64,000 nt of DNA from Sclerodactyla briareus. Lineage: Eukaryota; Echinodermata; Holothuroidea; Dendrochirotida; Sclerodactylidae. The position numbers were made by a program, and so were the translations under genes. The DNA lies in assembly GCA_026419785.1 (NCBI GenBank), contig JAODTK010005890.1, forward strand, positions 203,501 to 267,500, written 5' to 3'. Shown here piece after piece: positions 879 through 62,784 of this stretch. The notes under the pieces were generated by a model that had not been told where the DNA came from, did no database searches, and saw only the letters and a list, made by a program, of their open reading frames with translations. How positions within the stretch are numbered: the first letter of the stretch is position 1; every line of letters begins with the position of its first letter.

Positions 879-1085
879 CTGGTGAGGACAGAGAGGATAT
901 CCTGTGCTATTATCTGCAGAGAGGCTGCTCCCCCTGGAGCACCCAAATCCATCCGATGGTCAGGTAGCACGGCCAGACGTTTCAGCTTCCTGTCTGGGCC
1001 CTCGGTTCATGTCGACCGGACAGAGGCAACGTCACCCATCACTGGACAGCTTCAGGTCCGAGAAGTCTGGAGGCATCTCTCATAC
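879..1085 (-). CDS. SZT2: SZT2 exon, leftmost seen in window
   Basis: The acceptor is CACCCTCAG and the donor CACCAG/GTAAGTATT. The start reads YE-EMPPDFSDLKL after one base slip and the end reads RMDLGAPGGAASLQIIAQDI then LSVLT. These match human segments beginning YEKLPLDY and ending in LSAIAQLLSILT. The two ends are in different frames, with stops between, so at least two indels are present. The phase fits the previous exon (AA or CA plus G completes the codon before TAT GAG). The next exon lies outside the window. Confidence 0.8.
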
Positions 1086-4000
1086 CTGAGGGTGAAGCAA
1101 ATAAGATTATGTTGAAAGGTACCAGACATTCATCCAGCAAACCCGTACGGATGAAGAAGGGGCCATTCAAACATCGCATTCAACATTTGAAGCACGTCAC
1201 CTCGGTGCGTGATTATCCAATTTTATATCCTGGTAATTTTTACTTGCAGACAACAAAATCACTCATCATCGGACAGCGGCACATTTAGACTAGTTAGGGT
1301 CACATAAGATTCTTGAATAGTCCACGAGATGGCGACTTTCTTTCTTTATTGATTGTGGATGAGCACCGGCGAAACTAGCCTCCGTTTCATCGGAATAGTG
1401 GCTCAGATAAATTGAGTGTGGGTGTGACCATCTGCAACCGCTCTGGGACTGACATTTCAAGTCCCATTGGAAAGAGCCAATCACGGTGAATTCCAGAACC
1501 TGACCACTTTCTCAGACGGAGAAGGCGAAGTTCAAGTTCAACCTGACGTGTACAGCCGACTGACGAGACCTATACGCAAATAGTCCTGTTCACAAAACGC
1601 CCGTCAGTAACCTCAAGAAGTCTCTGCATCTCAGAGGAACCTTGAAGTAAGAACCAAGACCTCGCCCATTGCAACTGTTAGTACAGCTAGTATACGGGAA
1701 ACACGTCTTGTGACTGTTGGAATTCGAACCCGGAATGTTTTGCTGCTTGCAAAGCGTCACTGAACCGCTCTGGCCAACAATGATATTCAGCGGTCTTTAC
1801 CAACACACTACACACAGGGCTCTAAAAGCGTTGTTTTCAGAGTTTAGTTTCCAGGCCATACTCACTGGTCAAGGATAACTTCCACTGGCCTTTGTATCCT
1901 CAGCTGTACCCAGGGCTGTGGAAGCTTTTTTAGAGTTTTAGATTCGGCTCATACTCACTTGACAAGGATAACTTCCCTGGTCTTGTATCAGCTGTATCAC
2001 AGGGCTTCTTGAGGGTAGGTTAGGGTCCTCCCCTTCAGTGACATCTTCCTGCCCTTGGTGATCCTGGTGGGGTCCTTGCTGTGGATCACTCTGAGACTGA
2101 GCAGCCCAGCTAGCTTTCTCCTTCCAACTCATTAACCAGCCTTGTGGACGCAGAAGAGATAGGGATGATTTGAATTTAGTGATAAATTTAGCCATGGCCA
2201 AATGTGAAATTTTTGCTTTCACGTTCTGATATATGTTAGAATAGTAGTACAGATGAAAAAAACATAAAACATCTTTATATAAAGGTAACTTCTTATATCT
2301 CAAACTTGTTATTTTTTTAGCTTTTTTATCACAGGGGACAGCACAGCGAAGTTTCATACCTTATACCGGATGGAAGGGTGTTCAACCTAGGAATTCCAAT
2401 CGCAGGACCACGGTCAGACCCTTACAAACGATGGGAGATGTTAGAATGAAGTTGGAGGGACTGTTCTTATCTCTGAAAAGGAGAAAGACAATAGAAGTGA
2501 AAAAATATGACAGACCTCACACTTCTAGAAGTGGAATATGACAGATTCACTGCAGGAAATATGGTGTATCGTCTTCGGCATATAGAACAAATCTGGTAAA
2601 AGCGCTCACACCTCACACTTAATAGAACGTGGAAGTAGGACAAATCATTGGCAAATTGGCTGGATTCTCACACCTCACCCTAACCAGGAAGCCAAACGGC
2701 TTAAGTGACCTGACTGTTCTGTCAACCATAGCCAGACACATGGACAATGGGAGATAGTACAGCTCATTATAGGCAAACATAAGTCTGACAATTTCTATCT
2801 TTAAACCAATAATAGGGTCGGTACCTTGGTAAGAAAGCTAAATCCTGAATTTTGAGTTTCGACTTTGAACTCTGGTAACCTGAGGTGACCTCCAACCTGA
2901 CCCAAAACAATAGGGTTCATGTATCATCATGGGGAATACAAAACCAATTATGAGCCTCATTCACCCGACCTTTACCAAACAATAGGGTTTCTGTAATCCC
3001 TCTAAGAAAGATAGACACCTAATTTAACCTGATCGTCAACCGTTTGGGACTTATAGTTTTTTTCAAGGTTTCAGACTGTGACTCGGTGACCTCAGATACC
3101 TCGACCTGACACAAAACACGAGGGTTTCATTATACCTCATCATGGGGAACAAACTACCAAGTATGAGTTCCAATCAGGTGGGGTCAAGTTATGTGTTACA
3201 AGCAAAATTGGCTAAAATATTCAAAATTTTTTCTATTTCGATCCACAATTCACTCCTGCACATGACCAAAAACAATAGGGTTCTTGTACTCCCCTAAGAA
3301 AGCTATCACTAATTTCAACTTGATCAGACCAACCAATTAGGACGTATGTGTTTAAAGGTTTTGCAGACTTTGCCGTGGTGACTCAGATGACCTCTGAAAT
3401 GATATCAAAACGAAGGGTCTATACTAATCATGGGGAAAACACATACCAAGTATGAGTTTCATCCTTCAGGGGGGGTCGAGTGATCGTGGTTTTGTTTTTT
3501 ACAAGCCAAAATGGCCACAATATCGAATTTTCACAAATTTTCCATTTCGACCAAAATTCACTCCCGATGAACCAAAAACAATAGGGTTCCTGTACTCCCC
3601 ATAAGAAAAAATATATACACCCTAATTCAACTGATCAGACCAACCATTCGACTAACGTGTTTACAAGAGTTTTCAGACTTGACCCTTGGTGACTCAGATG
3701 ACCTCTGACTGACCCCAAAACAATAGGGTTCATGTAATCATCATGGGGAACACACATACTAAGTATGCGCTTCATACATTCAGGCGGGGGGTCGGTTATC
3801 GTGTTTTCAAGCCCAAAATGGGCCAAAAATCGAATTTTCACAAATTTTCTATTTCAGACCAAAATTCACCCCGACCTGGACCAAAAAACAATAGGGTTCG
3901 TACCCCCATAAGAAAGCTATACACCTCCTTCAACTGATCAGACCAACCATTGGATTATCGTGTTTACAAGGTTTCAGACTTGACTATGGTTGACCTCAGA

Positions 4001-7000
4001 TGACCTCGACCCGACCCCAAAACAATAGGGCAATGTACTCATCAGGGGGAAAACACACATACCAAGTATGAGCTTCATCCATCCAGGTGGGGTCGAGTCT
4101 CGTGTTTACAAGCCAAAATTGGCCAAAACATCGAATTTCACAAATTTTTATATTTTCGAACAAAAAGTCACTCCCAACCTGAAACCAAAACAATAGGGTT
4201 CCTGTACTTCCAGTAAGAAAGAAAGCTATACACTAATTTCAACTTGATTCAGACCAACCATTCTGGAACTTATTGTGTTTACAAGGTTTGTAGCCTTTGA
4301 CCTTGTTGAACCTAGATGACCTCTGACCGACCCCAAAACACAATTAGGGTTCATGAAATCATCAAGGGGAAAAACAACATACCTAAGATGAGCTTAATCC
4401 ATCCGGGTGGGGTAGAGTTATCGTGTTTACAAGCCAAAATTGGCCAAAATATCGAATTTTCCAAATTTTTCTATTTTCGACCAAAATTCCACCCCTACCT
4501 GGAACCAAAAACAATAGGGTTCCTTTACTCCCCTAAGAAAGCTATACACCTAATTTCAACTTGAATCAGACCAACCATTCTGACTATCGTGTTTACAAGG
4601 TTTTTTCAGACTTTGAACCTCTGGGCCTCATATGACCTCTGACCCGACCCCAAAACCATAGGTCATTGTACTCATCATGTTGCACACACATACCAGTATG
4701 CGCTTCATCATCCCTCCCGGTGGGGTCGTAGTTATCGTGTTTACAAGCAAAATTGGCCACAAATATGAATTTCCACACTTTTCTATTTTCACAAAATTCC
4801 CTCCCCCGACTAACCAAAAACAATAGGTTCTGTACTTCCATAAGAAGCTATACCCTAATTATCAACGTGATCAGACCAACCATTCTGGACTTATCGTTTT
4901 AAAGGTTTTTCAAGACTTTGACCTCTGTGACCTCAGACGACCTCTCTCCTGACCCCAAACATAGGTTTCATACTCATCATGGGGAAACACACTACTATAT
5001 GAAAAAGCTTCATCCATCCGGGTGGGGTTCGAGTTATCGTGTTTTCCAAGCCAAAACTTGGCCAAAATATCGAATTTCACAAATTTTCTTTCTATTTTCG
5101 ACCAAAATTCACGCCGACCTGGACCAAAACAATAGGTGTTCCTGTACTTCCCCATAAGACAGCTATACACCAAATTTCAACTTGAATCGGACCACCATTC
5201 TGGACTTATCGTGTTTACAAGGTTTTCAGGCTTGACCTCTGGTGACCTCAGATGACCTCTGACCTGAACCAAAAACAATAGGGTTCATGAACTCATAATG
5301 GGGAACACACATACTAAGTAATGATCTTCATCCTCCGGGTGGGGTCGAGTTATCGTGTTTACCAGCCAAAATTGGCCAAAATATCGAATTTCCCAAATTT
5401 TCTATTTCTTTCGACCCAAAATTCATGCCACTCCCGACCTGAACCAAAAACAATAGGGTTGCCTGTACTCTCTCCCCATAGAAGCTAAACCCCAATTTGC
5501 AACTTTATCAGACGCAACCATTCTGGACTTATCGGTTTACAAGGTTTACATACTTTGACCTCTTGTGACCTCAGAGACCTCTGGACCTGACCCAACAACA
5601 TAGGTTCATGTACTCATCATGGGGAACCACATACCAAGTAGAGCCTGACCAACCCAGACTGATCAAGTTATCGTGTTTACAAGCTGGGCATCACACCCAC
5701 ACGTACACAAACCACACACACACACAACACCACACACACACACACCACCCACACACACACACGATGTGACTGCCTAGATTCCTCTGAATTCGTCAAGGAA
5801 TCAATAAAAGTGATAGACGAGACAGAATCACGGGAAATATGGTGAACCATATTCTGTCATATAAACAGATCTGATAAATCTTACACCTCACACTTGAAAG
5901 AAATATGAAGACTCATTTCAAAGTGTGATGAACTTTATCCATCATATGGACAAATTGGCTGAATCCTCACCCCACCAAAAGTGATCGGACAATAAAGACG
6001 GAGTCACACATAAATACGGTGAACCTTATCTGTCATAAAAAACAAATCTGGTAAAATCCGCAAATCGCACACTCAGTGCCATAATGCACTTGTTTAGTGT
6101 AATGTGTTCTGTGGAGCATATTGGTGAATAGCACACTGGGTACGACCCCTGAGCAAATTATAAGGCCATTCGTTTGAGACCTCCTTTTCCCTTTTTATTG
6201 ATAATCTGTGGAGAGGCTTAATGTGGTAATCCTCCCTTTGCTATAAAAGAATGGAAGACAGGAATGCCTGATGGATACTTACTCATAAGTAATGTTGATA
6301 TAGCTGTGTTTTCCCAGTATGATGAAGCTAGCACTTCCCCCCCCTCTCTCCAGCAGGGCATTGAGCTCTTTCTTCTGCGCCAGCCTTACACTGGACGTTA
6401 CCAAAAACCGACCACCTGCTGTTGCGTGGTGCAGATGCTTGGGCAGGGGTCTGCAAGGGAACAAACCAGCAAAACTCAACAAAAATGAATACAAGCAGCA
6501 AAACTGACGCAGTAAAACTTACGAAAAGATACAGAGCAGTTAAAAAGGAATGGAAGCGTGACAACTTTGAGGAAGTGCTCAGTCCCGCCCCTTGGCCCTC
6601 AACAATCTTGACATACAAGTTACCGGGTAAAGTGTGGGCACAGTATGTGGACATTTGATGTTTTTTTTAGTTACAAAAACTAAACAAAAAGGCTGTATAA
6701 ACAGCAACATAAAGAGATATCATACACCATTGTATATGACTATCTGCCTTGGTATATAATTATCTTTTTTGCATGGTACATTACATACAACTTGAATTGC
6801 TCAGCGTCGTTCCTTAACCACCACATTCTTGACACGGAGTGACAGTAGTTTTGCTAAGTCATTAGGGTTGTTACCCTCTGTTGTCAAGAATGAACCTGTA
6901 GGCAGCAACATAAAAAGCTAATCACAACACCGTAGCACATGGCTATCTGCCTTGGTGTCTAATCAACTTTTTTCGCATGGACATTAGATGAGGTTACTCA

Positions 7001-10000
7001 GCAGAAGAACGTACATGTGTAGTCATCAGACAAACGCCAACTAGGAGGGTGCCCTGGTAGTCCCCAGGACAGACAGCACTGCGGCAAACCATAACCCTGG
7101 TCATGCTTTACTGATTCCAGAAAATTCTTCAAGAAATTGTCGCAAGAGCACTCTCAACCTCCTGGTGCCAGGCCCACCGGGAGGTGGGGGGGGGGGACAG
7201 GCTGTTCCAACGTAGGGGGGGGGGGAAGTACTCCAAATCATGCATCAAACAGCCGGCAACTCTGTGTGTGTGCAAAAAGCCATTTTGCCTGGAACAATAA
7301 GAACAGGGAATTCACAACTATGTATTTTTTCTCCACCTTCTTCTATACAGAACAAAAAAAGTATGCGGAAATGGTGAAATGAAAGATTGTGGTAATCAAC
7401 AGTTAATGTGTTAGTGTACGCACCTGATAAAAAGCCTCCTAATGACAGTTTACCTTGAAAACCACGAACATATAAAAATGCTTCATTAGTCAACAACCAT
7501 TTCGCCCCCCCCCCACGCCCCCCCCCCCCCCCCCCCCCCGCATGATGTTGAAACAGTAGATACATACTAAGTTGTAAAAGAGTACAAAACTACCTTTCAT
7601 TCAATCCAAATATCAAATCATGTACACGACTCTAAAATTGGTTAATTCAACTACTCTATGAAAACCTGAGAGCAACTATTCGGTAACTTGTCATAGTTAC
7701 AACCAACATATTCAGCTGGAATAATGTTACTACCCATAGCTTTGTCCATGAGGGCAATCCCTTCCAAAGCTCAGCAAACATGTGCAAGGATTCATCTCTG
7801 AGAAGAGAAAACATGAATTATACTGAATTAGATCTCCTCCCCATATCTTTGGTCATAGATTCTGGTAGACACAGCGTACATTGTAGCCTTGTTGGGGCCA
7901 TTGGCTTTATAAATGCTCATACAAAGTTTTCAGCTGTTTGTTCCTCAGCTCTGTTTGATCTTTTGCCCTGTATGATCTTCATGGAAGAGGCTTTATACAC
8001 ATCCTTGCGATAATACTTTCAAAACGTAACAATGTGATGGGGCGGCGTGAAATAGCAGAGTGGTATCACCAGAGTTTCACCCTGGTGGCGGTTCTGGCAG
8101 GGGGATGAGCTCCTCCAAGTTATTATGAGAGAGTGTCAGGACCCTGGCTGGATTTCAAACTGATCGTCCTTTCATGAGGCACATGAAATGGTGGTCCTGG
8201 GAGCAGGTTCAGATTGCTTACAACGTGCTTCAATTATCATCTATCACTAGTAGAAAAGGAGAAGGTGAATTATCGTCAGTGCTCATCGAGATAAATATGG
8301 CCAGGGTTCTTGATGGTTTTTAATCATATCAACATTCAGAGCTTTGTTCACAACTTTCTAACCATGGCGATGCTAGAAGATCAATATACAAAACAGTATT
8401 AATGATGGATACTCAAAGACAGCTAAGGTCCACCATTCTGTTGCAGAAGTTTGGCATCTAAGAATCCTTATTCAAAGTGAAAAGCAAACAGTCATAGATT
8501 CAGGGGGAATGCTGGTTTTTGTGTTTCTTCAAAAATATCAGGGGCAAAAGAAAATGCTTGAACCGTAGCTTGAAACATACCTGGATGTTTAACGTGATAA
8601 ACCTCATTCCCAACACGATATACAATCACAAAGATGTCGGGCAAAACGTTCAGTATTCAGGAATATGCACAAAAAGGTTGCACAAAAAGTATGTTGGCAA
8701 TAATAGTCACACAAATGTTGCCTAAGGTTTTCCCAACATTCGCGTTCTTCGGGCATGTGTACTGGCCATATCTGGCAACGCTACATGCGACATTTGTTAT
8801 AAACATTGTGGACTGCCGACAAAAACTGCACATGAATGGTTAAACAGTTCAAGTGTCTCAGACATCTCAAGGAAAACTTTTCTGAATGCCCTTCTTTCAA
8901 CGTTGCATATTCCGCATCCTAAATAATTTACCTTGGCCATTGGGAAATGGTCTTTTATATATCATATACATCTGCTAAAATTCCTCATGTTTTTGGTCAA
9001 TTTTTCTGACAGGAGATAAAAACTAAAAGTTCCCATTGAAAAAAGAATAATATTGCTGGCTTCCACACAATAGAGTGTCCAACATTACTCAGACACAAAG
9101 TTTTTCCCACATCAGAATATCATTCATGAAACGATGACGCACAGTACGACTGGGGTTACTATTAAATTTGGTTGTTTCTGTAATACAGCATCATAAAATG
9201 CAACTGTTGTCACAAGAGGGATTTGGCTACACAAACAGAAATCTGTGTCTGATTGATATGAAATTTTCCATCACCTTAATATTATTTCTACTACTTTTTG
9301 TGGTTGCTGAGCAAGGACAGGATGATCTGAGTTGGGGGGCATGTAGAAGGAGGCATTCCCCTTACTGGTTCCCTCTGGTACCTGGTAGTAGGCAGGGTTA
9401 CCATTTTGAACGGACTGCACATGTGAACTAACAGTTGTCTGTGTCCTCAAAACGGTCAGGAAATGATATCAAAGGGAAAGTTGTCCTCATGAGTGGATGA
9501 GCAGAAATGGCCATTCATGCATCACTTCATAAGTGTTCTTAGGAAATTCCTGGGTTCAAACTGATAAGTGCAGGTTAGATTATAGGCTTGCTTGGGTCTG
9601 GCAGTGCCTCCTTTCTTTAGATTATTAAAGGATAACGGTCATGATGATTTAAACATGGGCTTATTTGATAGATGGATAAAGCACTGAAGGCGTCAGTCCA
9701 AACCTGAAGGTCATAGGACTTTCCTTTAAGAGTTATAGTCATTGAAGTTTGTGTATGGTGGAGCATGTGTATTCGACAAATCGAAATGATGCATCCACCA
9801 TGCAATGATAAATGTATTTTGTCATGGCACAACCCGCAAACATTCTTGTTTTCATTGAAATTCAAACAGTAATTCCACCTCGAAAAAAGTTTAGTTCTAT
9901 GGGCGAGGATTGCTGTATTGGGTTGGTTCGTGTTGATAGTTACTTTGATAGAGAAAGACCACAGAACTCCTGCTAAATGGTGACTTATACAACATAAATG

Positions 10001-13000
10001 AAACAATTCAAATACATAACATAATTCCTTTGTGTCCATGTGTGACAGTATGGTTATTATGCTATTGAGGATTCTCCCCCCAATTTCTCTGCTTTAATGG
10101 CCCAAACTTTGAGGCCAATAACTCCACATAGGAACATGTTATTGAAATGGAATTGGGACCTATATATACAGTGTTCCTCTCTACAATGTAACCTCTGTTG
10201 TATCAAGCTGCGTGTCCTTAATCTATCTCTGCCACTCGTTGTACTCTATGCACTTGAGGGGTCAAAGAAGGGGTGGTGTCTTCTTCAACCCAGTATGCAC
10301 CCACTGCACTCCACGCAAAAAAAAAAAAACCCAGTCCTGACAGTCAATGACCATGAATGAACTGGGGCAGGGAATACCTGATCAGCATGTTCATGATATT
10401 ATGGTACTACAACCATCTGGGTAACGATTGGAACTGGACTGTACAGGGTTCTGGTAAAACCGTTATAGCACCTGAAACTAGAAGTAAACAATGTGTAATT
10501 GCTTCCTGGCTTGCGGATGGAAAAAAGCATGCACTCTTCTGAGGGTTTGCTGGCAACACATTTAATCTGTTGCCACAGAGAGCACGAACTTCAATAATGT
10601 CAATAATTCAAGCCTATTCTTAAAACTAGCTGTCTCTGTCCTCCTAAAACAATAGGGAGTTTATATTTCACACGATGACTGTAACCTACAGCGCGATGGC
10701 GACACCATCACACCAACGTCTGCCGTTACTATGTCGATCCCACACGGGTCTCTCACTTTTCACCGTTGTGCATACCGACCGACCTTGAACCCACTCGCAT
10801 GACAATCATCACCGTGTCCTTCCACCATGGAATTCGAGAATTTTAAACAAAATACGGTCTATCACTCGAATGCGCACTCGCAAAACGGCGTACCTTCTAC
10901 ATACGCAACTGGCACATTGTATATATCTAAAGGCGCATCTTACTGCAGACAAGCACCATGGTCTACATACAAACATCGTGAAAAACATTAACAATCATCA
11001 CTGCCATCACCCTCGTGAAATCTGTAGCTCCCTAATAAGGAAGAGAGAGAGAGGGGAGAGGCAGTGGAGCTGAGGTGAGAGGATGGAGAGAGGGATGTTA
11101 CCTCCTGATCATCTGCCAGAAGTTCTTGATGACCCTCTTCTTCAAGATGCTTTTCGCCTCCTCCTGTTGAGGGGGCAGTTGATGTCATGGATGAACTCGT
11201 AGGTGCCCTCCATCACGACCTCGAGTGAGTGACTCTCCGTATTGAATGGAGAACAAAGATACAACACAATGGAATGAATCAATCCAAACACTACATTCCA
11301 ACCCTGGTGGTGCATGGTTTCTCAAATGATACGAACAACCTGGCACTCTAATTGTAATATTTTCCTCATTGACCAGAGAGCCAAAAAGGCTCAGTGACTC
11401 CCTACTGTCTTGATGGTCAATAACCTCAGATGACATTCGCCATGATCTCAAAACTATGAGGGACAAGTACTCATTCATAGAGAAACCGACTACGTGGAGC
11501 TGATCCATCCAGGTGGGGAAAGTTGTCACAAGCAAAAAATTGACCCGAATATATATTTTTAACAATCACCCAATCTTTACCAACAAGGACCTTTAATCCA
11601 CACCAAAAACAAGCAGGTTTTTTATCCATACTTCCCCAAAGCTACATACCAAATTTCAGCTTGATTGCCCCAAGCATACAGGCCTCTTATTGTGATTCTA
11701 AGGACTAACATGACCACCAATAGGGCTCAGGTTAACCTATAGGGAACCCACATTCAAATATGAGATTCATCCATCAAGGTGGGGTGGTGTTATGTGATCG
11801 AAGCTACATTTGCCAAAATATCTGTTTTTCGCAAAGTGACCCCAATCAATGAAACAAATTGGGGTTTTGTGCCCCGCCAAGCTTGGACTTTCATAATTTT
11901 TTGTCAGACTGACCTTTGACCTACCCAAAAACAGTATGTCCATGTACTCATATGGGGAACCCACATTACCAGTAAGAGTCATCCTCCTAGGTGTGGTCAA
12001 GTATTATGATCTCATGCCAGGGGCCACATACACACACTGGCATAACTGCATAGATTTCTCGACTTTTGTCAAGAAATTAAAAAAACTAACACCACAATCA
12101 CCTTCTCGCACTCTTCATAAGACATTTGTCTGGATCATTATTGCATGAAAAGCAGATTTGTGAAAAGAAAAACAAATCTGTGATCTGGTTGACTCCCTGA
12201 TGGTTTTGTGCACTATGCAATTATGCTGAAAAACAATGAGAACAGTCACAGAAGCTGAAATCCAATTTGCTGACTGTTGTTATCAGGCCAGCCTCACAGC
12301 TTAGTCCAGAGATTAGTGCTGGCTAGTTTCTAGATGGGACAAGAGCTCATAAGTCATCGTGATTCACAATACCTAATTCACACCCTGATTCACAATAACT
12401 AATTCACAATACCTAATTCACACCCTGATCGATCATTGAGTTTTGGGTTACAGAGGCTGCAGGCGCTGGGTGAGGGATAGACAGCAAAGAAATAGCTGGC
12501 ATCTGGCATAGGATCTAGTCTATGAGAGTTGACGAGGCAGGTATGCCTGGCTCTGGGGAACCCATTCCTCATCGTACCGACAGAGTTCAAGTTCAGTCTC
12601 CCTGTACCATGAGGTTTGAACAGGGACCCCGGAGGTATTCACGACCCCATCTTCATTTGGAATAACTGCAATGAATTTAGGAAACTTTATACATGAGAGA
12701 GCTTATAATATGAGCCAGTAATGTGGATTCACAAATCTAGACCCAGAAAGCAAAAAACTGGATTGTTAATTTGCATAAATGTTATGTAGCTCTATAGCTT
12801 CTGATTATAAATATATAATTAAACGTAACATACCTGCTATTTGGAGGTGGCCATGGCGCTTTGGGATATATTCATCTGCCCAGAGTGGGTAAATGGGAGT
12901 GCCATTCGGACATCTATACCGGCCCTTGCTATAAAATAAAGATGACAAGCAATAATTCTCAGCACCAATTGATATGTTACTCTACATTTTCTATTTGATT

Positions 13001-40960: not shown

Positions 40961-41154
40961 AATAATGACTGCTTGGGGGTGGGCCTATAATACATATTTT
41001 CACTCTACTGGCACTATAAAATAATGCAATAAAAATCTGTGTACAAGCTGAAAGTAGCATCACCAGAGGAACATTATGACATAATTTCAGGAAATCTTCT
41101 CTGCTACAATTATTAAGTGGGTGGTCTAGAGTCTGAACACTGGTCTGAATAGGT

Positions 41155-42310: not shown

Positions 42311-42513
42311 AGTTACTGTTGCCCGAGGCATTCGCTTCGGGGAACTTTGGGGTAATGTAGGTTAGTGCAAGTAACACTATACACAGGAGTGTTATTTTTC
42401 TTTCCAGACTACACAACTGATTCGATGTTCTTATTAAATTACTGGAGGAATGCAAAATGGTATGGGTGAAATTTTAACAAGATCAACTAATGGAAGAGGG
42501 TTAGATTTGTTTG

Positions 42514-42646
42514 ACGGTACGAATTTAGAATCAGTGTCCGGAAGTAAGAGGTGTCCACGGACCCAACCTGTGAATAGTCACTCTGACACGTGCAACATGT
42601 AACAATGTACGTCACTTCCGGGTACTGATTTCTAAATTAGAGCCGT
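42514..42646. mobile_element. 133-bp MITE-like element with ~32-bp terminal inverted repeats
   Basis: The left end (ACGGTACGAATTTAGAATCA, then GTGTCCGGAAGT) is the near-complement of the right end (ACTTCCGGGTACTGATTTC, then TAAATTAGAGCCGT). Each arm carries a CCGGAAGT core (ETS-type site). The interior has CACGTG. Confidence 0.7.
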
Positions 42647-42649
42647 TTG

Positions 42650-43879: not shown

Positions 43880-43885
43880 ATGCAG
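43880..43885 (+). CDS. MED8: Candidate MED8 exon 1 coding part (ATG CAG)
   Basis: ATGCAG at 43,880 is followed by TGAGTACC; a single lost G would give CAG/GTGAGTACC. Joining to the next exon gives MQ-SKEAL, and human and fly MED8 both start MQR. The match is short, so the call is tentative. Confidence 0.4.
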
Positions 43886-49800: not shown

Positions 49801-52800
49801 CATGAGATCAGTTATTCATGATAACACAAGGGTCTGATATTCCTAACAGAAAAAAAGTTTGGTATTCATAGTAGAAAAAGTTTCATTATTCATAATTGAC
49901 AGAGGTCTGTTATTCATAGTAGAACGGAAGGTTCATATTCATAATAGGGAAAAAGAATTTGTAATTCATACTTGCCAGTGGAGTTGCCTCAGCCCTAAGT
50001 GGCGTAAGTGAAATTATTCTTGGAGCGGGATGATGGAGCTCAGTAGCCGAAAGAGGATTTTGTTTGTTCAATTTTGTCAACCTGTAGTGGCGTCCCTCTT
50101 AGTCATGTGCACCCCCGGTTGGAATATCCTGTATATGTGCCTGCCTACCATACACCACAGTGTTTTCAGCTTCTATCCGATTTTTCCACCATCCCCATCC
50201 CCCACCTTCCCACTCCCCGCTGTACGACCACTTACGCCACTTGGGGGTTGAGGCAATCCTGATTATGAATCATTACGAACCTATGTTTTCCTATGATATC
50301 AAACCTTACGTCCTATTATGAATAATGGACTTTTTTCCTGTTATATCAAACCTTGAATCCTCTTATGAATAACAAACCTTTTTTCGATTATGAATTATGA
50401 ACCTTTCTATTATGATATCAACCCTTTGTCCAATTGAAGTAATGAACCTTCTTCCTAATATGAATACCAAACCGTTTCCTCATTATGGATATCAAACCTT
50501 TTTTATTAGCTTGAACCAGCTATGGTACCTACCTACCTGTCTGTCTGTCTGTCCATCCATCCATCCAGCTAGGATTGTGTCTATGGTGGTATACATGCCT
50601 TAATCATCAAATGGGAATCCACTCCGGCAGATACATGGAAATGATAATTTTTTTCTCTTGTAGTCAAAAGAGGCCCTAGACACTTCCTTGGAGAATCTGT
50701 CTAAGAGGATACTAGACGTAAAGAAGGCTTTGGCGACTCTACTTATAAAGCTTGAAACAGAGCCAGATACCATTCAGTGGTGAGTATTGTGAGGCTGATT
50801 GTGTGATTAAGTGGTTGAGAAATCTAGGATTGTGGGTCGTACCCTCGTCCTCGTCCACTTCCTTAACTACGCAGTTGTTGGATAGAGACCAGCGAGGAAT
50901 GAGGCACTTGTTGTAGACCCATATGGTATATGAGGTAGCCAGTCTGCCAGTGGCACTTGTTGTTCTGACCCACTGGAAAAATCTGTTGTCAGTGAACAGC
51001 TGAGCCTGCCCGTTACGTACATATAGTCCATGTTGCCATTATTGACCAGAATACGAGATTGTGAGTACTGACAGTGGTAACAGAACATAAAAAAGGATAA
51101 TACTACAAGGCTCCCTTGATCACAAACTCTACCCAAGTATGCTCACGATCTGTCTACAGTATGTGTGGAAATATCTACCTGGGAGTGTCATATGATCCCC
51201 AAAATTCACAGTTTACAGTCACAAGTGAAAGCAAAATGTTAAGTGTTAACTGAGTAATGGTCACTAATTTTAGACAGTTTGAATCTTGTCAAAAATATAT
51301 ATATCAATAGAGTTTTGTTTCCCTTGAAGATGCCTAGATTCTGAGGGCTTCCATCATAAAAAAAACAAAAATTTCTTACTTTGTTCCTGTTGTTGTTCCC
51401 TGTAGAATAAACATGAACAACATTCAAATGATTGTGTTGGTAGAATGTACCAGTCATGGAATGCACTTTTATTTCCAGGATTTCCCTAAAACGATTGCTA
51501 GCCCTAGCTAACTTGTCACTCATTGCATGCAACATTTGAAATTAATGGTACGCAACACCAGCTTAATGATTACACACACATGTGGAGTTAGTTGGGTATA
51601 TATATTTATATCAGATTTTAATTGGTTAAGGCTTCACACTTTTATGTTGTGAGTTTGTTGTTGTGAGTAAGTTGATCCCAAGTAAGTAAAACTTTATCAA
51701 TCTAAAAAAGGAAATTCAAATACTCACACGTACAGACATAGAAATAATAGAAATGAACAGTTAATATAGATTCATATATAAGTAATATAGTGGGCTATAA
51801 AAATGTGACAAAGGAGTTAGCGTCTCTGATTTCTTAAGAAGCTTGATTGCACTAGGGATAATTGAATTTTGATGTCTATTGGGTTTAAGACTCAGTAGTC
51901 TCAGCCTAACGATACCTCTCTCTATAAATCTGTCATGGAGGAGTTGATGAAGAGGGTGACTTGTGTCAGTGTGAATTCCAAGTCATGTTGAAAACTTATC
52001 CCCCATTTATTTCTCACAGATTTTGTGCCAATTGGGTATTTATGAGGAGCAACCTATATTAACAGGTACTCCAGTTATCGTCCTTCTACAGGTTGTTAAT
52101 AATAATGATAATGATTCGATTTCATGTGGCAAACCAATCTCAAAGTGCTTCACAATCATTACCCCTGCTCATTGGTAACTTTTCACACCCACACTCTATA
52201 GTGCACAATCCTTGCTGTTCGCACCTGGCACACTGAACAGTTATGCCAATCTTGTCCCCTGGGGGATTTCCCATAGGTGCAGCCACATACAACGCAATGC
52301 TATATAAGTTACCTAACAGGGTACCCATTTAACCTGGGTGGAGGGAAGCAATCGAGATGAAGCACCATGCTCAAGGGTACAACGGCCAGGGTAATATTTG
52401 CGAAGTGCATACGACACACCCCATGTAAGTTGCACCATATAAATTCTCAAATTTTACCACATTTTAGCATTGTATTTGCAAAGGAGCAGGGATAAGTGGA
52501 GTAGTGCCCTCCAAATTCAGCTGTGACAAATGTAATGAAACAGTGCTACAAGAGTGCAGATGAGAGTTCTCTGTTTCATTTGTTTTCTGCAGGCCTTCCT
52601 TGTTAGACAGCTTTGCCCTGTTATCAGTTGAGTACCAGTACCACCCTGCGATCATAGCCTGTAAGCAGAGATCGATCGTCTTTTGATGCTTTCTCAAATC
52701 ACGGTTGCTCATAATATGGTAGTGCATGATGAATGGTGCATTGTACTTGTTAATATCATAGAAGATACAGTGAAAAGGCAGGCACAATTTTTGCAATCTC

Positions 52801-55800: not shown

Positions 55801-58800
55801 CTTTCGAGAGGCACTATATAGCTTCTGAGAGAATTGGTGTAATATAACAAAAAAGTACAGAATGTAAACTCCTTCAGTTGGTGAAGCCTCAGCCTTCCAC
55901 CTGGTACCGGAGTAGGCAATTTGCACGTTGCCCTCTGAGTATTTACCCCCCCTCACATTAAGGTACCACTAAAGAGGCATTGCCTTATTCCGTGCACATG
56001 TGAAGAATTCGCAAATGACAAAGACGTGCACTGTGCAGTATCCAGGTTTGATCCTCTGCTCATCAAGTGTATCATAGAAAAATCTTCGCAAAATTAGGAA
56101 TTTCCCTTAATGAGTAATGCAAACAGACTGCATCATTCGTCTCTTTCAGATTCTCACAGAGCGACGTGTTCAGTCATTCAACAATGAGGTCGTCCCAAAC
56201 TACCTGAGAACAAAACCAGAGCCTGCCACTGAGGAGAAGAGAAAGCAAAACAGAAGGATGCTGCGAATGTCAGTCAAGAACTGGCCACTGTAGGTGTCTC
56301 TCCTATTTAGTTTGGTTACTCAGTTACCAGCAGTATGGAAGTGTGCACAGTGACAAAACTTTAACGTGATGAGTCCGAAATTTTGCCTATGACATCTTTT
56401 GTTATCAAGTGTCTTACCCAGTGTTTTTTATGCCTAGTAGGTAGCTGCTTCCTTGCTATGTTGCCCTCTGTACTATTCAGTAGTAGATATCATGTAATAG
56501 TCCTTGTTTTTCTTGCCCTTTTGATACTTTTGTGTTCTGGTACAGTGAAAAAAAATTGATTCAAATCTAGATTGCACAAAATTATTTTATGCAGTTATAT
56601 AGTCAGCCTGTCAGCCTGTAGAATGTATGAGAATGTGAGCGCTGCCCCTAATTTTGTGAAATTGTGTCTTTTTTTTACTTTGCCCTTTTGATGCTTTTGT
56701 GTTTGGGTACAGTGAAATAAAATAGATCAAAATCTAGATTGCACAAAATCATTTTAGCCAGTTATCTAGCAAGCCTATAAAATGTATGAAAATATGAGGC
56801 TGCCACGAAATCTGTGAAAATGTATCTTTTGTAAAAAACTTTGTAACTTTTGTGTCAACGTTCAGTATGTGCATGATAAACTACCGTCCATTTTGCTTGC
56901 AGAGTCAAGCAGCCAATTTCAACCGCTGCCTGGACACTTTGACCAACCACCTTCAGACAGCCAAGGACAACTGGGAGAAAGAGGGTTAGTACCAATACAA
57001 GATACCCATGGGGACATCTCTATTACCAGTAGATACACATGGGACAGACTCTATTACCATAGATACCCATGGGGACATACTCTAATACCAGTAGATACCC
57101 ATGGTGACATACTCTATTACCAGTAGATACCCATGGGGACATACTCTATTACCAGAGATCCCCATGGGGACATACTCTATACCATAGATACCCATGGGGA
57201 CATACTCTATTACCAGAGATACCCATGGGGACTACTCTATTACCAGTAGATACCCTGGGGACATATTACCAGTAGAATACCCATGGGGGACATAATCTAT
57301 TACCAGTAGATACCCATGGGGACATATTACCAGTAGATCCCATGGGGACATACTCTAATACCAGTAGATACCCATGGGGACATACTCTATTACATTAGAT
57401 ACCCATGGGGACATATTACCAGTAGATAACCCATGGGGACATACTCTATTACCAGTCGATACCCATGGGGACATACTCTAATACCAGTAGATACCCATGG
57501 GAACATACTCTATTACCAGTAGATACCCAGGGGGACATACTCTATTACCAGTAGATACCCATGGGAACATACTCTATTACCAGTAGATAACCCATGGGGA
57601 CATACTCTAATACCAGTAGATACCCTGGGACATACTCTATTCCCAGTATATACCCATGGGGACATACTCCTATTACCAGTAGATACCCATGGGGACATAC
57701 TCTATTACCAGTAATACCCATGGGGACATCCTCTATTACCAGTAGATACCATTGGGACATACTCTATTACCAGTAGATACCCATGGGAACATACTCTATT
57801 ACCAGTAGATTACCCATGGGGACATACTCTAATACCAGTAGATACCCATGGGAACATACTCTATTACCAGTAATACCCATGGGGACATACTCTATACCAG
57901 TAGATACCATGGGGACATACTCTATTACCAGTAGATACCCATGGGGACATACTCTATTACCAGTAGATACCATGGGGACATACTCTATTACATAGATACC
58001 CATGGGGACATACTCATTACCAGTAGATCCCATGGGGACATACTCTATTACAGTAGATACCCATGGGGACATACTCTATACCAGTAGATACCATGGGGAC
58101 ATACTCCTATTACCAGTAGATCCCATGGGGACATACTCTATTACCAGTCGATACCCATGGGGACATACTCTAATACCAGTAGATACCCATGGGGACATAC
58201 TCTAATACCAGTAGATACCCATGGGGACATACTCTAATACCAGTAGATACCCATGGGGACATACTCTATTACCCGTAGATACCCATGGGGACATACTCTA
58301 ATACCAGTAGATACCCATGGGGAATACTCTATTCCCAGTAGATACCCATGGGGACTACTCTATTACCAGTAGTACCCATGGACATACTCTATTACCCGTA
58401 GATACCCATGGGGACATACTCCTATTACCAGTAGATACCCATGGGGACATACTCTAATACCAGTAGATACCTATGGGGACATACTCTATTACCGGTAGAC
58501 TGATGGATATGATCTGGTATCTTGATTTGATATCACTGCATCAAGGAGGCACTACTCTCAAGAGCACTCAAAAAACACTTGTATATAGGTGTAATTTATC
58601 ATTATTATTATTAGGAGGGAACCTTGGGGATTTGCTGCTACAAATAGCGAAGACAGACAGAACCGTATGAGTAATCGTAATTCGAGGACTAAGTATCCAG
58701 CGTTCGGAATATCTGTGTCGCTCGCAATATGCTTCCCGAAACGAGCAAGATTGCTACACACTTTAGGACCTGCATGTGCGTCATTTGTTGTACACAAAAC

Positions 58801-61800
58801 AATAGGCAGCATACAGGTTTTCTACCTAAATTGCTACACAAGGGTCTGGCACTATTTCGAACTTCGAAACGCTGCAAGTAAGCTGAGGATATCTCGGTTT
58901 CGAGTGGGTAGCCTCTGCAGGAACATTCCAAATTACCACTACTGTGTTTATTCAGATGCATTAATGCGAACACTGGAGCAAATAGACTGATTCTCAGAAC
59001 TAGAACATGTTCAAAATATACGCATATGACTGGGACACATTGTTCCAACGAAATGAATCAAGGCAGAAAGGCATCCTCACAGCATAATAAAAGAACACCC
59101 CTATTCAATATAGTCAAAGCAAAATTGATGGTTGTGTGATCACTGAAGATGTCTTAAATTTCGACAAAGCTCTGTTTGCAACCTGAAATGTGAGGAAATC
59201 CTATTAGAAAATTACGCCAATTCGACATGGATAATAACCTCCTTGTTCCGCATGGGGTTCTTGGAACCACGTACGTATATACAGCCTCTTTCTGCGTTCA
59301 TGTGCTGAGTGAGCAGGGCTTTTTGGGAGGTGGATTAGCTCAGTTGGTAGAGCTCCAGACTGAAAAACCATTGAATGCGAGTTCGGAGCCCATTGGAAGC
59401 CCGAGGACTTTTCCGCAGTGCATCGGGACAAGGCAAGTCTCCTGAACTGTCCACGCACCACGTGTTAGTAAAAGTGGACCTTGTGAGCTGACTTGTGAAG
59501 AGTAGAGAGCACTGTATGTGGCTGCCCCAATTGGGAAGTCCCCTGGGAGACACGATGAAGTGACGTACTGAAATGGTGCGTCGGGAGTGAACGAGCCAGA
59601 ATTGCATGCTAAGAAGCGCTATATAAGCACTGTATAAGCTCTGTATAAGCTCGTATATTATTAGTCTGATTCCCACTGTGCTTCTACTGGACACATCACG
59701 ATGTTGGTCAAAAACGCCTGTGCACTCCAATTAGGCCATAGGCACCTATTGATACAGTAAAACCCTTCAATGCATCATCTGATTGATATATTACTTGGCA
59801 CACATGTTCATCGTAGGAAAGTATCGGACGGATTCAACAGTGGGTGTCATGGCTGTTGTCACATGGCTAATTCGTGTAATTTATACAATTTTTTGGAGCA
59901 GATTAGTTTGTTTAATTTTAACGGAACTGTGTGGATGGAGAGTACATTTCATAGTCCTGACAAAGTTGCTGCAGGTCAAGTTTGCATAGGTTATACCATT
60001 TTTGAAAGTTTGTCAGGTTTCACCAAAACTCGGTTGATGTGGATGACATTTGGTACTGACAAGAGTGGAGATTGTTTCGAGGTCACTGGGGGTCACTTGA
60101 GATCAGATGAAATAAATCACCAGAATTCGCCAGGTTTCAACCACACTGGTGCATCTTTTACGGTAGCTTATAGGCCTACTTCCCCAGCTGTGCGCACTGC
60201 ATTATGGGTAGGATGTGACCTGATCAAGTGAAACAGCCCCATTGGTTCACTGTAAGACACTCCCAACTTTATTGAATATTTCTGTGCTGGAATCGCATGG
60301 TTGAAAGGTGAAAGTTCACAGAGAGCAAGATCTTTATAATTATCTCTACAACATATGTCAATTTGTGCAAGGATGTGCAAATGTGCAAATAATCCATGAG
60401 GAAGCAGTCGTCAAAACAATTTTTTCCTCCTTGCAAATTTTACAATGAACTGAACACAGACCTTAGTTATGTGAACAGTCATTTCAATGTAATAACGCAA
60501 TAGTTAAAATTTTGGGGCCTAACTTTCGGTCGAAAACACCCTCTATGTATTTATGATGTGGTCTATTATGATACTTCTGATCCCAGGGATTTAGAGTTGG
60601 TGCAGCGAATGCACGTCCAGTTCTCTATTATCCCACAGATCAGCATGCTGGCCGCCGTGATGGAATCTACTCCAACCCCAGCGACACAACCATTCTTGTC
60701 CAGGCTGTGAGCCAGGGAAAGGGACTGAAGCTCTTCAGACCCTCCGGACCCTCCTCCAATATCCCCTCCCCTGGGGGTATTCCCCAGCAAGTGGCCAGAC
60801 CAGCTGAGCAGCATGGTAGGTTGAAATTAGCAGATGGCCACTCTTCAATTAGTCAGATTTTGCTAGAAATGCCTAATAATACTCAGCAGAGTATGCTATC
60901 TTGATTACTCTCGACTGGATGTCCATCGTCTCTAACATTGGTTAAGTCCTCTTTAGATTGAGGGAGCGACATTCTGGGGTTGGAAGTCTCTAAACCTTTA
61001 ATAATTACATGCTGTTCTAAATTATTCAGTGAACCATATGCCCTGGTCCCAAAGGTGTGAGTCAGCTTTCAACAGTTAATTTTCCAATAACAGTCAACTC
61101 TCAATAGTTAATTACGACATTACATGTTGATGTTCAATTGAACAACCACTCAGTCCACTTGCTTCACATAATCACAACCAAAACACTCCAACAAGTCCCA
61201 ATATGATTAAAAAATCTATAAGGTAAAGAAATATTCCTTAAACAGAAATGTTCGCAGATAGGGTTTAAAGGAGTTGAACAGAATATATAATATATGAAAA
61301 CTAAAAAAAAAGATTATTTTTGCTGAGCCTTACAAATGTTTTCAAAATCTATCAAAATCTAGACTGTTCGTTTGTATAATGCATGAACAACAGAGAATTG
61401 CCTTGCATGGAAGCGGGCATTGAATTTGAATCCTTTGGTCAGCTGTGATTCTTTGTCAGACTGTGGAAGGTGCACATCCTTAATATGAAGCCGTTGGTCC
61501 AGTAGAGTGAAGATCCTGGTCTTAGGTTCCACTCATTCCCACCTCTTGTAAGAGGTGGCTAACATGCAGTACTTGTCCTGCCATGCATCCTAACGACATT
61601 ACATGATGATGTCCCATTGAAAAACCCATCAATCCATGTGCTTCATGTAATCTCAACAAAAATCACCCCAACAAGTCCCAAACTATAAAGGAACTGATCG
61701 TGGACTTCAGGCAAAAGAGAATCTGAAGGACCCTCTCATCGATACTGGTTCTGTTGTAGAACAGGTTCATTCATTCAAATTGCTTGGCACATTCATCACG

Positions 61801-62784
61801 TACAACTTATCATGGAACATTAATTCAGATGAGATACTGAAGGAGGGACGCCAGAGACCATTCTTTTTACGGACTCTTAATCTTATGGTGTTAATGAAAG
61901 GATTTTTAGTGAATTTTTACCATGCAATTATTAAAAGCATTTTAACTACAAATATCTTAGTCTGGTTTGGTTGTATTAGTCGAAGGGATCATGATAAACT
62001 ACAATCCATGATTGGAAATGTGAAACGCATTATTGGCACTAGCCTACCGCCTCTGAACTTACTCTACCAAGAAAGGGCACTGAAGCGTGTTAAATGTCAG
62101 ACGAATCCCATCCAGCCACTGGGTATTTTAGGTTTCTTCCTTCAGGCAATAGACTGAGGGCTTTTAGGGGTTCTAAACATTTTACTAACAGTTTTTACCC
62201 TTTTGCTATGAAAATACTCACCGCCTAATGAAAGTTGTAGGTTTGTGACCGTTTGAAGTCTTTACTTATACGTGTGTATCGTTTTGTTTTATATTTCAGG
62301 TGCACATTTTTAATAGTCACCTCTCTTTAAATATTTATTATTTCATGATAGCTTGTTGTATATTTAAGACTTCACATATTCACCATTCATTTCAATGTTC
62401 CACATTCATGTCATTTCAACTTTTATATTCGTTTTCAGAGCTCTTGTGTTCACACACACAATGTATTTATGTGCGATTGGTTGAATAATTCTAATTTGAA
62501 CATAACAAACTTATGGATCAACTTATCATCACAGGACTGGCCCAAAAGGTGGCTAGTTTGACCTAGGTGCTGTAGTCCATGAGATGCTGCGCACACCACT
62601 GAGATTTCTTTAGTATTATCTGACGAGGCAGTGATAATGCATAAACTATGTAGATGGATGTCGCTGAAATAATGTCATTAAACAAAGTCTGCATTCTCTG
62701 TCCCTCTCCCCAGCACCAATGGGCAAAGCACCAAGTGGTATCAGGACGAACATCAAGGCCGCGACACCGTACCAGCACAAATGA
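43880..62784 (+). CDS. MED8: MED8 homologue, Mediator complex subunit 8 (plus strand, complete gene)
   Basis: MED8 is a subunit of the Mediator head module, where it contacts MED17 and, through its C-terminal helix, MED18/MED20; it works in RNA polymerase II transcription in the nucleus. Eight exons (the first tentative) cover the whole family: N-terminal helices (ALDTSLENLSKRILDVKKAL), WPSLLDSFALLS, NEVVPNYLRTKPEPATEE, a helical region (AANFNRCLDTLTNHLQ), YSNPSDTTILVQAVSQGKGL, and the C-terminal signature GKAPSGIRTNIKAA. The predicted length is about 250 residues, against 268 in human; the loss is mostly in the Q/G-rich linker. Exon phases agree at most junctions. Frame breaks near 53,712 and 56,248 and two damaged donors look like sequence errors. 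It lies head to head with SZT2. Confidence 0.92.
43915..44045 (+). repeat. CCTAGG-rich low-complexity run
   Basis: Many copies of GCCTAGG/GGCCTAGG within 130 bp just after the candidate MED8 exon 1, with shorter runs at 42,820 and 42,900. The motif is palindromic. Confidence 0.75.
44860..45545 (+). mobile_element. CR1-like LINE C-terminal fragment split by a SINE
   Basis: 44,876-44,920 reads DLIETFKILKGFL. 45,360-45,530 reads NLKLFKPRLTKGIQIRK, NFFSQRVNHWNALTN and TTISKFKRAID. Both are typical of the end of CR1-type ORF2. The SINE at 44,925-45,320 lies between. It is in MED8 intron 1, sense orientation. Confidence 0.75.
44925..45320 (+). mobile_element. tRNA-derived SINE, family S2, inserted in a LINE
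   Basis: Head GGCGGATTCGCTCATTCC with a B-box-like GATTGCGAGTTCCTCGCC. The body matches 59,329-59,665 (TTGTGAAGAGTAG, GACGTACTGGAATGGTGCGT). The 3' end is AAGCACTACATAAGAACGAG followed by (ATT)n. Confidence 0.75.
45546..46804. other. MED8 intron 1, unassigned
   Basis: A duplicated segment is visible: TTTTGA(A/G)GAAGCAATAAA with CTTGCGCAA and CTACTACTACTATGTGTACC occurs near 45,640-45,755 and again near 45,990-46,040. No exon is recognised. Confidence 0.45.
46805..49700 (+). mobile_element. CR1/Rex-like non-LTR retrotransposon, near complete but frame-broken
   Basis: Endonuclease start KLSCVLLNSRSLLNKIDVLE at 46,900 and TEAWATDDILNAELGLR at 47,010. Reverse transcriptase motifs are DVLYLDFSKAFDKLPHARL (48,645), PQGSVLGPTLFLLYINDI (48,838) and KMLKFADDTKLYRKI (48,910). 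The C-terminus reads TRGHSLKL near 49,552. A ~22-G run at 47,093 interrupts the endonuclease. It is in MED8 intron 1, sense strand. Confidence 0.87.
49750..50515. mobile_element. Foldback-like element: inverted arrays of ~30-bp iterons around an inverted repeat
   Basis: Left arm 49,762-49,983 repeats TATTCATAATAGAAAAAGG(T)-type units about seven times. The right arm 50,258-50,515 repeats the complement (ATTATGAATA-CAAACCTTTT). Next to the core, TTGCCTCAGCCCTAAGTGGC (49,984-50,010) is inverted at 50,229-50,256. The ~220-bp core is noncoding. It lies just upstream of MED8 exon 2. Confidence 0.72.
50664..50779 (+). CDS. MED8: MED8 exon 2
   Basis: Acceptor TTTCTCTTGTAG, donor CAGTG/GTGAGTATT. 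It is open for 38 codons: SKEALDTSLENLSKRILDVK then KALATLLIKLETEPDTIQ. It matches human LEASLDALLSQVADLKNSLG and SFICKLENEY. The last two bases (TG) need a G from the next exon to make the conserved W. Confidence 0.9.
50780..52084. other. MED8 intron 2, unassigned
   Basis: AT-rich intron without recognised exon. 51,820-52,000 has words like CTGATTTCTTAAGAAGC and a possible reverse-strand LINE remnant, too degraded to assign. Confidence 0.4.
52085..52420 (-). mobile_element. SINE-like element, family S4
   Basis: On the minus strand it runs from about 52,420 (GTACCCTTGAGCATGGTG, CTTCATCTCGATTGC) to a 3' end AAGCACTTTGAGATTGG, then an ATTATTATTA tail at 52,100. The AAGCRCTTTGAGA-plus-ATT tail pattern is common in invertebrate SINEs. 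Confidence 0.6.
52593..52627 (+). CDS. MED8: MED8 exon 3 (short, WPSLLDSFALLSG)
   Basis: Acceptor TTTGTTTTCTGCAG. 35 bp reading (W)PSLLDSFALLS plus one base, identical in pattern to human WPSVLDSFALLSG. The phase fits both neighbours. The expected donor reads CAG/TTGAGTACC rather than CAG/GTGAGTACC: one base substituted, or a sequence error. Confidence 0.82.
53704..53820 (+). CDS. MED8: MED8 exon 4 (GHL...VILRPLTHEDPE)
   Basis: Acceptor TTTTTCCTCACTGCAG. It begins GHL in phase with exon 3, then after a slip near 53,712 reads VSQQYLLQESRQHLENVILR then PLTHEDPE. Spacing to human GQLNTLNKVL and RNQVIIPLVLSPDRDE is almost residue for residue. The 3' border at CAT/GTCTGC keeps phase with the next exon but is a poor donor and adds about five residues. 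Confidence 0.75.
53870..54530 (-). mobile_element. Repeat element family A, short copy, inverted
   Basis: On the minus strand: left end near 54,525 (complement of TGGAATCACTAACCTTTAG), internal unit words (complement of TACTTGGTAATGG, ACCCTATTGTTTTGG), right end (TG)n at 53,875. About two units remain. Confidence 0.65.
54538..54800 (-). mobile_element. Repeat element family A, minimal copy, inverted
   Basis: Right end at 54,542 (complement of ACTTGACAAAATTCAGAGGA), one partial internal unit (CAATTGTTTCGGGTCAGGTC), left end at 54,770-54,800 (complement of ACTGAGTCTTGGTATTCTGG). It sits head to tail with the previous copy. Confidence 0.6.
54820..55560 (-). repeat. Family-B-like diverged repeats
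   Basis: Recurring GAGGTCAAAG(G/T)TCA, CATTTTG and GTCAGT(A/G)TTATC words at about 110-150-bp spacing, reverse in sense to 39.5-41.0 kb. The tract begins after a (CTAT)n stretch at 54,875. It is noncoding. Confidence 0.5.
55870..56010 (+). mobile_element. tRNA-derived SINE, family S3 fragment
   Basis: Shares with the 24.2- and 25.7-kb copies (opposite strand) CCTCACATTAAGGTACC and GGCATTGCCTTATTCCGTGC. Confidence 0.55.
56150..56293 (+). CDS. MED8: MED8 exon 5 with NEVVPNYLRTKPEP
   Basis: Acceptor TTCGTCTCTTTCAG, donor CTGTAG/GTGTCTC. It reads ILTERRVQSFNNEVVPNYLR then TKPEPATEEKRKQ. After one A is restored in the run at 56,246-56,251 it continues KQKDAANVSQELAT. It matches human [20 protein letters not shown] and DPEVEEQEKQL. 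This is the most diagnostic MED8 exon. The end phase does not quite fit exon 6, so a further small indel near the border is likely. Confidence 0.92.
   Translation: MLTERRVQSFNNEVVPNYLRTKPEPATEEKRKQNRRMLRMSVKNWPL
56903..56984 (+). CDS. MED8: MED8 exon 6 (helical segment)
   Basis: Acceptor TTTTGCTTGCAG, donor GAGG/GTTAGTACC. It reads SQAANFNRCLDTLTNHLQTA then KDNWEKE, matching human KQIQSLNKMCSNLLEKISKE. It ends in phase 1, which fits the next exon. A 32-bp minisatellite begins immediately after the donor. Confidence 0.88.
56990..58497 (+). repeat. 32-bp minisatellite, about 47 units
   Basis: Unit TACCAGTAGATACCCATGGG plus GACATACTCTAT, repeated without spacers for 1.5 kb. Units vary by single-base deletions and a few substitutions (AATAC for TTAC; GGAACAT for GGGACAT). 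It is in MED8 intron 6. Confidence 0.97.
58498..59328. other. MED8 intron 6, unassigned
   Basis: 58,640-58,990 on the plus strand has the flavour of a LINE C-terminus (SIQVFYLNCYTRVWHYFE, LRISRFR), but no family motif is secure. The rest is unremarkable. Confidence 0.35.
59329..59665 (+). mobile_element. tRNA-derived SINE, family S2, with clear tRNA-like head
   Basis: Head GGTGGATTAGCTCAGTTGGT AGAGC has a good A box (TAGCTCAGTTGG); the B-box region is GCGAGTTCGGAGCCC. The body TTGTGAAGAGTAGAGAGC and GACGTACTGAAATGGTGCGT is shared with 44,925-45,320. The 3' end has AAGCGCTATATAAGCACTG and a TATTATTAG tail. Confidence 0.8.
59666..60638. other. MED8 intron 6, unassigned 3' part
   Basis: 59,770-60,231 is an open frame on the plus strand, but its translation has no family features I recognise and it overlaps no splice pattern of MED8. 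It is most likely repeat-derived or chance. Confidence 0.35.
60639..60815 (+). CDS. MED8: MED8 exon 7 (NPSDTTILVQAVSQGKGL)
   Basis: Acceptor TCTCTATTATCCCACAG, donor CATG/GTAGGTTG. 177 bp, phase 1 to phase 1, open: DQHAGRRDGIYSNPSDTTIL, VQAVSQGKGLKLFRPSGPSS, NIPSPGGIPQQVARPAEQH. It matches human FNPTDTNALVAAVAFGKGL followed by RPSG. It ends in a short P/G/Q linker. Confidence 0.93.
60816..61689. other. MED8 intron 7, direct repeat
   Basis: 61,105-61,200 (GACATTACATGTTGATG, CTTCACATAATC, ACTCCAACAAGTCCCAA) is repeated in diverged form at 61,598-61,682. No exon is recognised. Confidence 0.45.
61690..62160 (+). mobile_element. LINE fragment (Rex/Babar- or L2-like), C-terminal part of ORF2
   Basis: Reads FKLLGTFITYNLSWNINSDE, HAIIKSILTTNILVWFGCIS and KLQSMIGNVKRIIGTSLPPL. 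This is the conserved region after the reverse transcriptase of these LINEs. It has an unusually long open stretch (125 codons), so it may be a young copy. It is in MED8 intron 7, sense strand. Confidence 0.75.
62161..62713. other. MED8 intron 7, 3' part
   Basis: AT-rich sequence after the LINE fragment. Nothing is recognised apart from the pyrimidine-rich acceptor of the last exon. Confidence 0.45.
62714..62784 (+). CDS. MED8: MED8 last exon with C-terminal signature and stop
   Basis: Acceptor CCCTCTCCCCAG. G from exon 7 plus CA gives A, then PMGKAPSGIRTNIKAATPYQ HK and TGA at 62,782-62,784. It is nearly identical in pattern to human GKMPSGIKTNIKSA followed by HPYQR. No AATAAA is seen in the ~170 bp before the next minisatellite. 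Confidence 0.95.

Follow-up and report, generated by a model that had tools for sequence, protein, structure and literature searches.

SZT2 and MED8 form a head-to-head pair in the genome of Sclerodactyla briareus. SZT2 lies on the minus strand and MED8 on the plus strand with their 5' ends facing, and a stretch of DNA in which CpG is not depleted sits beside the candidate start of MED8. The arrangement stands up to checking and is probably ancient. Our best explanation, which we hold with modest confidence, is that the two genes are ancestrally linked and that one compact upstream region, at about 42.65-43.9 kb, most likely serves both, with transcription running outward in either direction. 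SZT2 is a subunit of KICSTOR with a full length of about 3,400 amino acids and MED8 is a subunit of Mediator.

Results

The window analysed here is a stretch of 64,000 nucleotides (contig C3133:203,501-267,500) in an assembly of 319 Mb and 3,171 contigs, the whole of which was searched. A further 200 kb to the left of the window was fetched, giving 264 kb in all; negative positions refer to this left flank. Human SZT2 and MED8 sequences served as the queries for tblastn and for spliced alignment. The initial annotation had SZT2 (minus) and MED8 (plus) diverging from about 39-44 kb, and the identities, strands and order that it proposed hold in Pfam, PDB and tblastn searches. Of the exons that were compared with solved SZT2 and MED8 chains, the one at 6.3-6.4 kb, taken alone, was the only one to match none.

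The minus-strand gene is assigned to SZT2 on the similarity of several exons and on their colinear order. With human SZT2 as the query, tblastn returned a minus-strand series, in order, at 39,237-39,178, 22,732-22,506, 13,622-13,569, 11,225-11,104, 9,426-9,301 and 6,449-6,291; the pieces at 22.5-22.7 kb reached an E value of 1.1e-12 and the others were weak singly (E 0.0006 to 0.23). The best SZT2 pieces in the genome search were 45-50% identical, a level that points to a non-vertebrate, and a search for COX1 gave no match. Coding sequence at 22,503-22,732, in one exon or more, corresponds to human amino acids 257-330 (VITDG...GYIPHTEIMQF) and contains a frame break near 22,640. Two window reading frames from 22.4-22.75 kb were joined by hand as a PDB query, and the three matches were all SZT2 chains and nothing else (best whole-sequence E 2.2e-08); searched singly, the two stretches gave E values of 0.14 and 0.012. 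The exon at 9,295-9,430 (human amino acids about 508-549), also found by tblastn, matched SZT2 in PDB when searched by itself (E 0.0032). Another exon, at 11,104-11,232 (about 459-498), was placed by tblastn and its reading frames, which are interrupted near 11,166. Probable exons lie at 13,552-13,630 (about 399-416; tblastn E 0.23) and at 6,283-6,450 (about 591-638), the latter aligned by tblastn (E 0.062) and giving no PDB match when searched alone.

Spliced alignment of the human proteins proved over-permissive and many small exons that it proposed were discarded as noise; we retained those backed by tblastn or PDB and two that are marked as weak. The latter are possible SZT2 exons on the minus strand at 2,761-2,824 (human amino acids about 681-695; E 1.8) and at 1,866-1,903 (about 739-750; spliced alignment only). 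They are the nearest pieces of SZT2 within the window to position 879, which had been given as the left edge of the feature and was not reproduced. The minus-strand series continues in order into the left flank, which means that no more than the 5' part of SZT2 falls within the window: human amino acids 855-1349 are found at -2,145 to -5,761 and amino acids 1,526-1,592, approximately, near -16.5 kb (E 1e-06), and a weak match near -21.0 kb (E 0.79) perhaps extends to about amino acid 1,700. SZT2 was traced in this way to about amino acid 1,590 of some 3,400, with two frame breaks on the way. The pieces in the window and at -2,145 to -5,761 cover 412 of human amino acids 1-1350 (31%), and at that coverage missing short exons are to be expected. 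Human amino acids 28-256 were located neither in the 264 kb nor genome-wide; this is a gap, though one that is not by itself surprising. No second copy of SZT2 was found in the genome search, in which the third match, on contig C3084, had an E value of only 6.07.

The first recognised coding exon of SZT2 is at 39,178-39,231 (MIEAEELYLLMKEEYRIS, human amino acids about 10-27). With the long SZT2 query, its tblastn match (39,178-39,237) had an E value of 0.09 when the window was searched and of 0.37 across the 264 kb; amino acids 1-60 alone gave 0.004 (26.9 bits) in the 264 kb. One of 200 shuffled queries reached 26.9 bits and none of 200 reached 28.5. The exon is preceded by the acceptor ...CTCCACAG| and followed by the donor |GTAACA, and it opens with an in-frame ATG. 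It may contain the start codon of SZT2 or follow an upstream exon.

The plus-strand gene is identified as MED8 by the Pfam Med8 profile and by similarity to solved MED8. The profile had two matches in the whole genome, both within the window, at 56,153-56,254 above the cut-off and at 50,667-50,789 below it; there was no second MED8 copy in this genome-wide search. The exon at 50,664-50,779 (human amino acids about 4-42) and that at 52,593-52,626 (PSLLDSFALLS), both with splice flanks, matched solved MED8 in PDB when spliced together (E 9.6e-09), as did the exon at 56.15 kb (E 1.2e-06). This last exon, at 56,150-56,285, covers human amino acids from about 92 to 123, and perhaps to about 135 in another frame after a break near 56,240. 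It is followed by an exon at 60,639-60,901 (about 174-237; tblastn and reading frames); the 3' boundaries of these two are not fixed. The last coding exon, at 62,714-62,784, found by tblastn and read from the sequence, ends in PYQHK-stop, and the right edge given in the initial annotation, 62,784, is the exact end of the stop codon. Amino acids 54-92 and 124-173 of MED8 were not located.

The exon at 50,664 follows an acceptor, opens in phase 0 and contains no start codon in its frame; MED8 therefore needs a further exon upstream. The best candidate for its start is an ATG CAG at 43,880-43,885 on the plus strand. It would give MQ at the beginning of the protein, as in human MED8. The letters that follow 43,885 read TGAGTA, leaving a phase-0 GT donor one base short. 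An alternative start at 47,826 has a strong donor and fits human MED8 less well. A first exon proposed at 49,510 by spliced alignment was rejected, having no start codon.

Several other features accompany the two genes. A GC-rich block at 28,000-33,500, inside a presumed SZT2 intron, shows a per-kb GC content of 0.59-0.67 between 28 and 33 kb, a CpG observed/expected ratio that is often above 1, and tandem repeats of 188 and 75 bases. A satellite array at 2,959-5,644 (321-base unit) and the array at 41,317-42,306 (302-base unit) have units that look alike by eye. In MED8, a reverse-transcriptase fragment lies in presumed intron 1 (48,543-49,048), a 32-base unit is repeated about 48 times in an intron at 57,000-58,499, and an open reading frame in a later intron (61,651-62,154) matches ALKBH8_N (E 3.2e-07) and is perhaps another piece of a retroelement. 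In the left flank, from about -82.3 to -69.4 kb, there is a long repetitive stretch whose minus-strand frames contain GPNPFTYPMGP-like repeats.

The nearest recognised SZT2 exon is 4.65 kb from the best MED8 start (39,231 to 43,880), or 11.4 kb from recognised MED8 coding sequence should the start at 43,880 prove incorrect. There are 25 open reading frames of at least 80 amino acids wholly within 39,232-50,663; among the 21 that were run against Pfam, 18 had no match and no other gene was recognised between SZT2 and MED8. The matches there were to RVT_1, at 48,716-49,048 (E 3.8e-11) and, below the cut-off, at 48,543-48,788, and to DUF3285, also below the cut-off, at 43,079-43,492. Pfam was run on 26 open reading frames in all, 22 from the window and four from the left flank, one of the four being an SZT2 exon. 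The first six (the four from the flank and two from the window) gave RVT_1, ALKBH8_N and, below the cut-off, AgrB, with three lacking a match; the other 20 gave two matches below the cut-off and 18 blanks. A search of the window against Rfam gave no matches.

Repeats occupy part of the interval. The 302-base tandem array at 41,317-42,306 lies between the recognised coding ends. A comparison of the 264 kb with itself showed no repeat within 42,307-44,922; the genome search places two there, a MITE-like repeat at 42,515-42,644 and a dispersed repeat at 44,170-44,350, just downstream of the candidate first exon of MED8. The MITE-like repeat has inverted ends that carry CCGGAAGT motifs of the ETS type, and among the 42 matches listed, its own included and with 40 of 65 candidates scored, it occurs at about 39 further places in the genome. 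ETS/GABPA motifs are common, and not required, at bidirectional promoters. The window has only two CCGGAAGT sites, both in this repeat, and they are two of the three in the 264 kb. At least one such site is present in nine of the 12 copies of the repeat that were fetched, this copy included, so the motifs arrived with the element, and an origin of the pair of motifs as part of a promoter was rejected. The repeat could be a mobile element able to spread ETS sites.

The CpG-undepleted stretch, at 43,251-43,750, is a candidate promoter core with an observed/expected ratio of 1.28 (19 CpG). This ratio is among the five highest of 1,054 windows in the 264 kb; three of the other four come from the GC-rich section between 30 and 33.75 kb. 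With 35% GC the stretch is AT-rich and does not qualify as a classical CpG island, and it lies nearer to MED8. Its composition points to a probable promoter immediately upstream of that gene, one that could serve MED8 alone. For SZT2, a scan of 42.3-44.4 kb for a start codon with a donor found no convincing coding first exon. On the minus strand, a GTAAGT donor at 42,760 scored 0.8, slightly short of the threshold applied in that scan. An ATG at 43,059 on the same strand, which opens MASFTLPASD-stop when read by eye and so resembles the MAS... start of human SZT2, has no usable donor and was rejected.

Discussion

The order and orientation of SZT2 and MED8 are best accounted for, on present evidence, by a shared region from which both genes would be transcribed. 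On this view plus-strand transcription of MED8 would begin at about 43.4-43.85 kb, and minus-strand transcription of SZT2 within some hundred bases of that point. The first exon of SZT2 would be short and mostly untranslated, spliced over an intron of about 3.5-4 kb to the exon at 39.2 kb, and that intron would now contain the satellite array and the MITE-like repeat. The two proteins need not cooperate: two broadly expressed genes on one open promoter would suffice. The initial annotation had drawn from the pair a functional linkage, most simply a shared promoter; its gene identities, strands and head-to-head order stand, and the promoter itself fares less well, with coding ends 4.65 kb apart and ETS motifs that are repeat-borne. 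We regard the shared promoter as a plausible guess and the leading explanation, slightly better than an even bet, its support being a CpG signal beside one of the two genes and the reports from mammals.

A substantial but lesser probability attaches to separate promoters, with MED8 read from the CpG-undepleted stretch and SZT2 from elsewhere in the interval, for example from near 39.3 kb using the ATG of the 39.2 kb exon. The pair would then have been kept by descent and little rearrangement, or by the harm that a breakpoint would do to a long 5' region. The distance between the coding ends, the in-frame ATG that opens the 39.2 kb exon and the outcome of the scan at 42.3-44.4 kb all speak for this arrangement. 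Against it, the acceptor before the 39.2 kb exon is a good one, so an upstream SZT2 exon should exist, and the CpG observed/expected ratio around 39 kb is low (0.21-0.45).

If a genome of some 25,000 genes is assumed, chance alone would place two given genes side by side in about one case in 12,500, and the adjacency of SZT2 and MED8 that is shared with human is therefore most simply ancestral. Divergent gene pairs are often held together by a shared promoter. It is unlikely, in our estimation, that this adjacency was simply inherited with no regulatory reason. That account is compatible with a sample of a single genome and with the absence from the contig of an ELO-family match, tested for ELOVL1, another neighbour of the human genes (a search of low sensitivity, with only two matches genome-wide). 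Against it, two genes taken at random are unlikely to have stayed adjacent in vertebrates and a non-vertebrate alike; in the leading explanation the shared region would be the reason why the pair was retained.

The reading frames of both genes deserve comment. Within conserved parts of SZT2 the frame shifts near 22,640 and again near 11,166, with both sides aligned by tblastn in each case, and MED8 appears to do so near 56,240, less firmly, the second side having an E value of only 1.3. Actin was searched in the same assembly to see if such breaks are peculiar to this locus. On contig C1260 (170,309-170,820), positions 229-315, 311-351 and 352-410 of the actin profile are matched back to back, each in a frame of its own; on contig C2792 (267,460-267,940), positions 239-331 and 333-410 are in different frames four bases apart, and a second actin stretch on that contig is unbroken across 264-410. 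These frame changes, two on C1260 and one on C2792, leave no room for an intron. Small indels in the assembly are the simplest reading that the breaks in SZT2, MED8 and actin suggest, and would also account for the imperfect first donor of MED8; some of the actin copies could be pseudogenes. That the locus has decayed to pseudogenes or been wrongly joined, as the frame breaks in both genes and the missing SZT2 amino acids 28-256 might indicate, is very improbable given matches in order over more than 60 kb, no other copy found of either gene, and actin copies that also change frame, from which small indels look general.

A more ambitious version of the shared-promoter reading is a long shot: one promoter, in use since before the vertebrates, would have driven MED8 and SZT2 in opposite directions and so coupled a subunit of Mediator to KICSTOR, a scaffold of nutrient sensing, throughout the animals. 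In this lineage the MITE-like element with its paired ETS sites would have inserted there and perhaps taken over part of the promoter. The extension of a mammal-conserved pair to a non-vertebrate lineage makes it likely in any case that the arrangement predates vertebrates. Were the promoter shared, a variant in it could act on both genes, and its limits could be defined with the help of invertebrate genomes; as a mechanism this would be ordinary.

What is new here is the addition of one non-vertebrate genome to the published mammalian head-to-head pair. The excerpts seen in a literature search (titles and the openings of abstracts) contained no account of the SZT2/MED8 pair outside mammals, and a search for SZT2 with bidirectional promoters found none. 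The main texts of PMC3815023 and PMC10887517 name neither gene. A fungal paper describes KICSTOR in early-diverging fungi (PMC11836306). A review states that mammalian SZT2 and MED8 are highly conserved in a head-to-head arrangement, have similar expression and may share a promoter (PMC12732463); the main text of the paper that it cites for conservation (PMC6732301) contains neither MED8, nor promoter, nor head-to-head.

Set beside known systems, the pair described here has both likenesses and differences. The human genes are adjacent and divergent on chromosome 1p34 with starts well under 1 kb apart, whereas here 4.65 kb of DNA, repeats included, separates the recognised coding ends. The review has the same two genes head-to-head in mammals (PMC12732463). 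As at human bidirectional promoters bound by ETS/GABPA (PMC3964217), the interval here has ETS-type motifs, two of them in opposite orientation, but these are the ends of a dispersed repeat. The bidirectional promoters of amphioxus (PMC6292497) likewise lie between divergent protein-coding neighbours and are enriched for housekeeping functions; most of the 372 that are putatively ancestral were lost in vertebrates. Start sites in amphioxus were measured by CAGE, whereas those of the pair in S. briareus are candidates predicted from the sequence.
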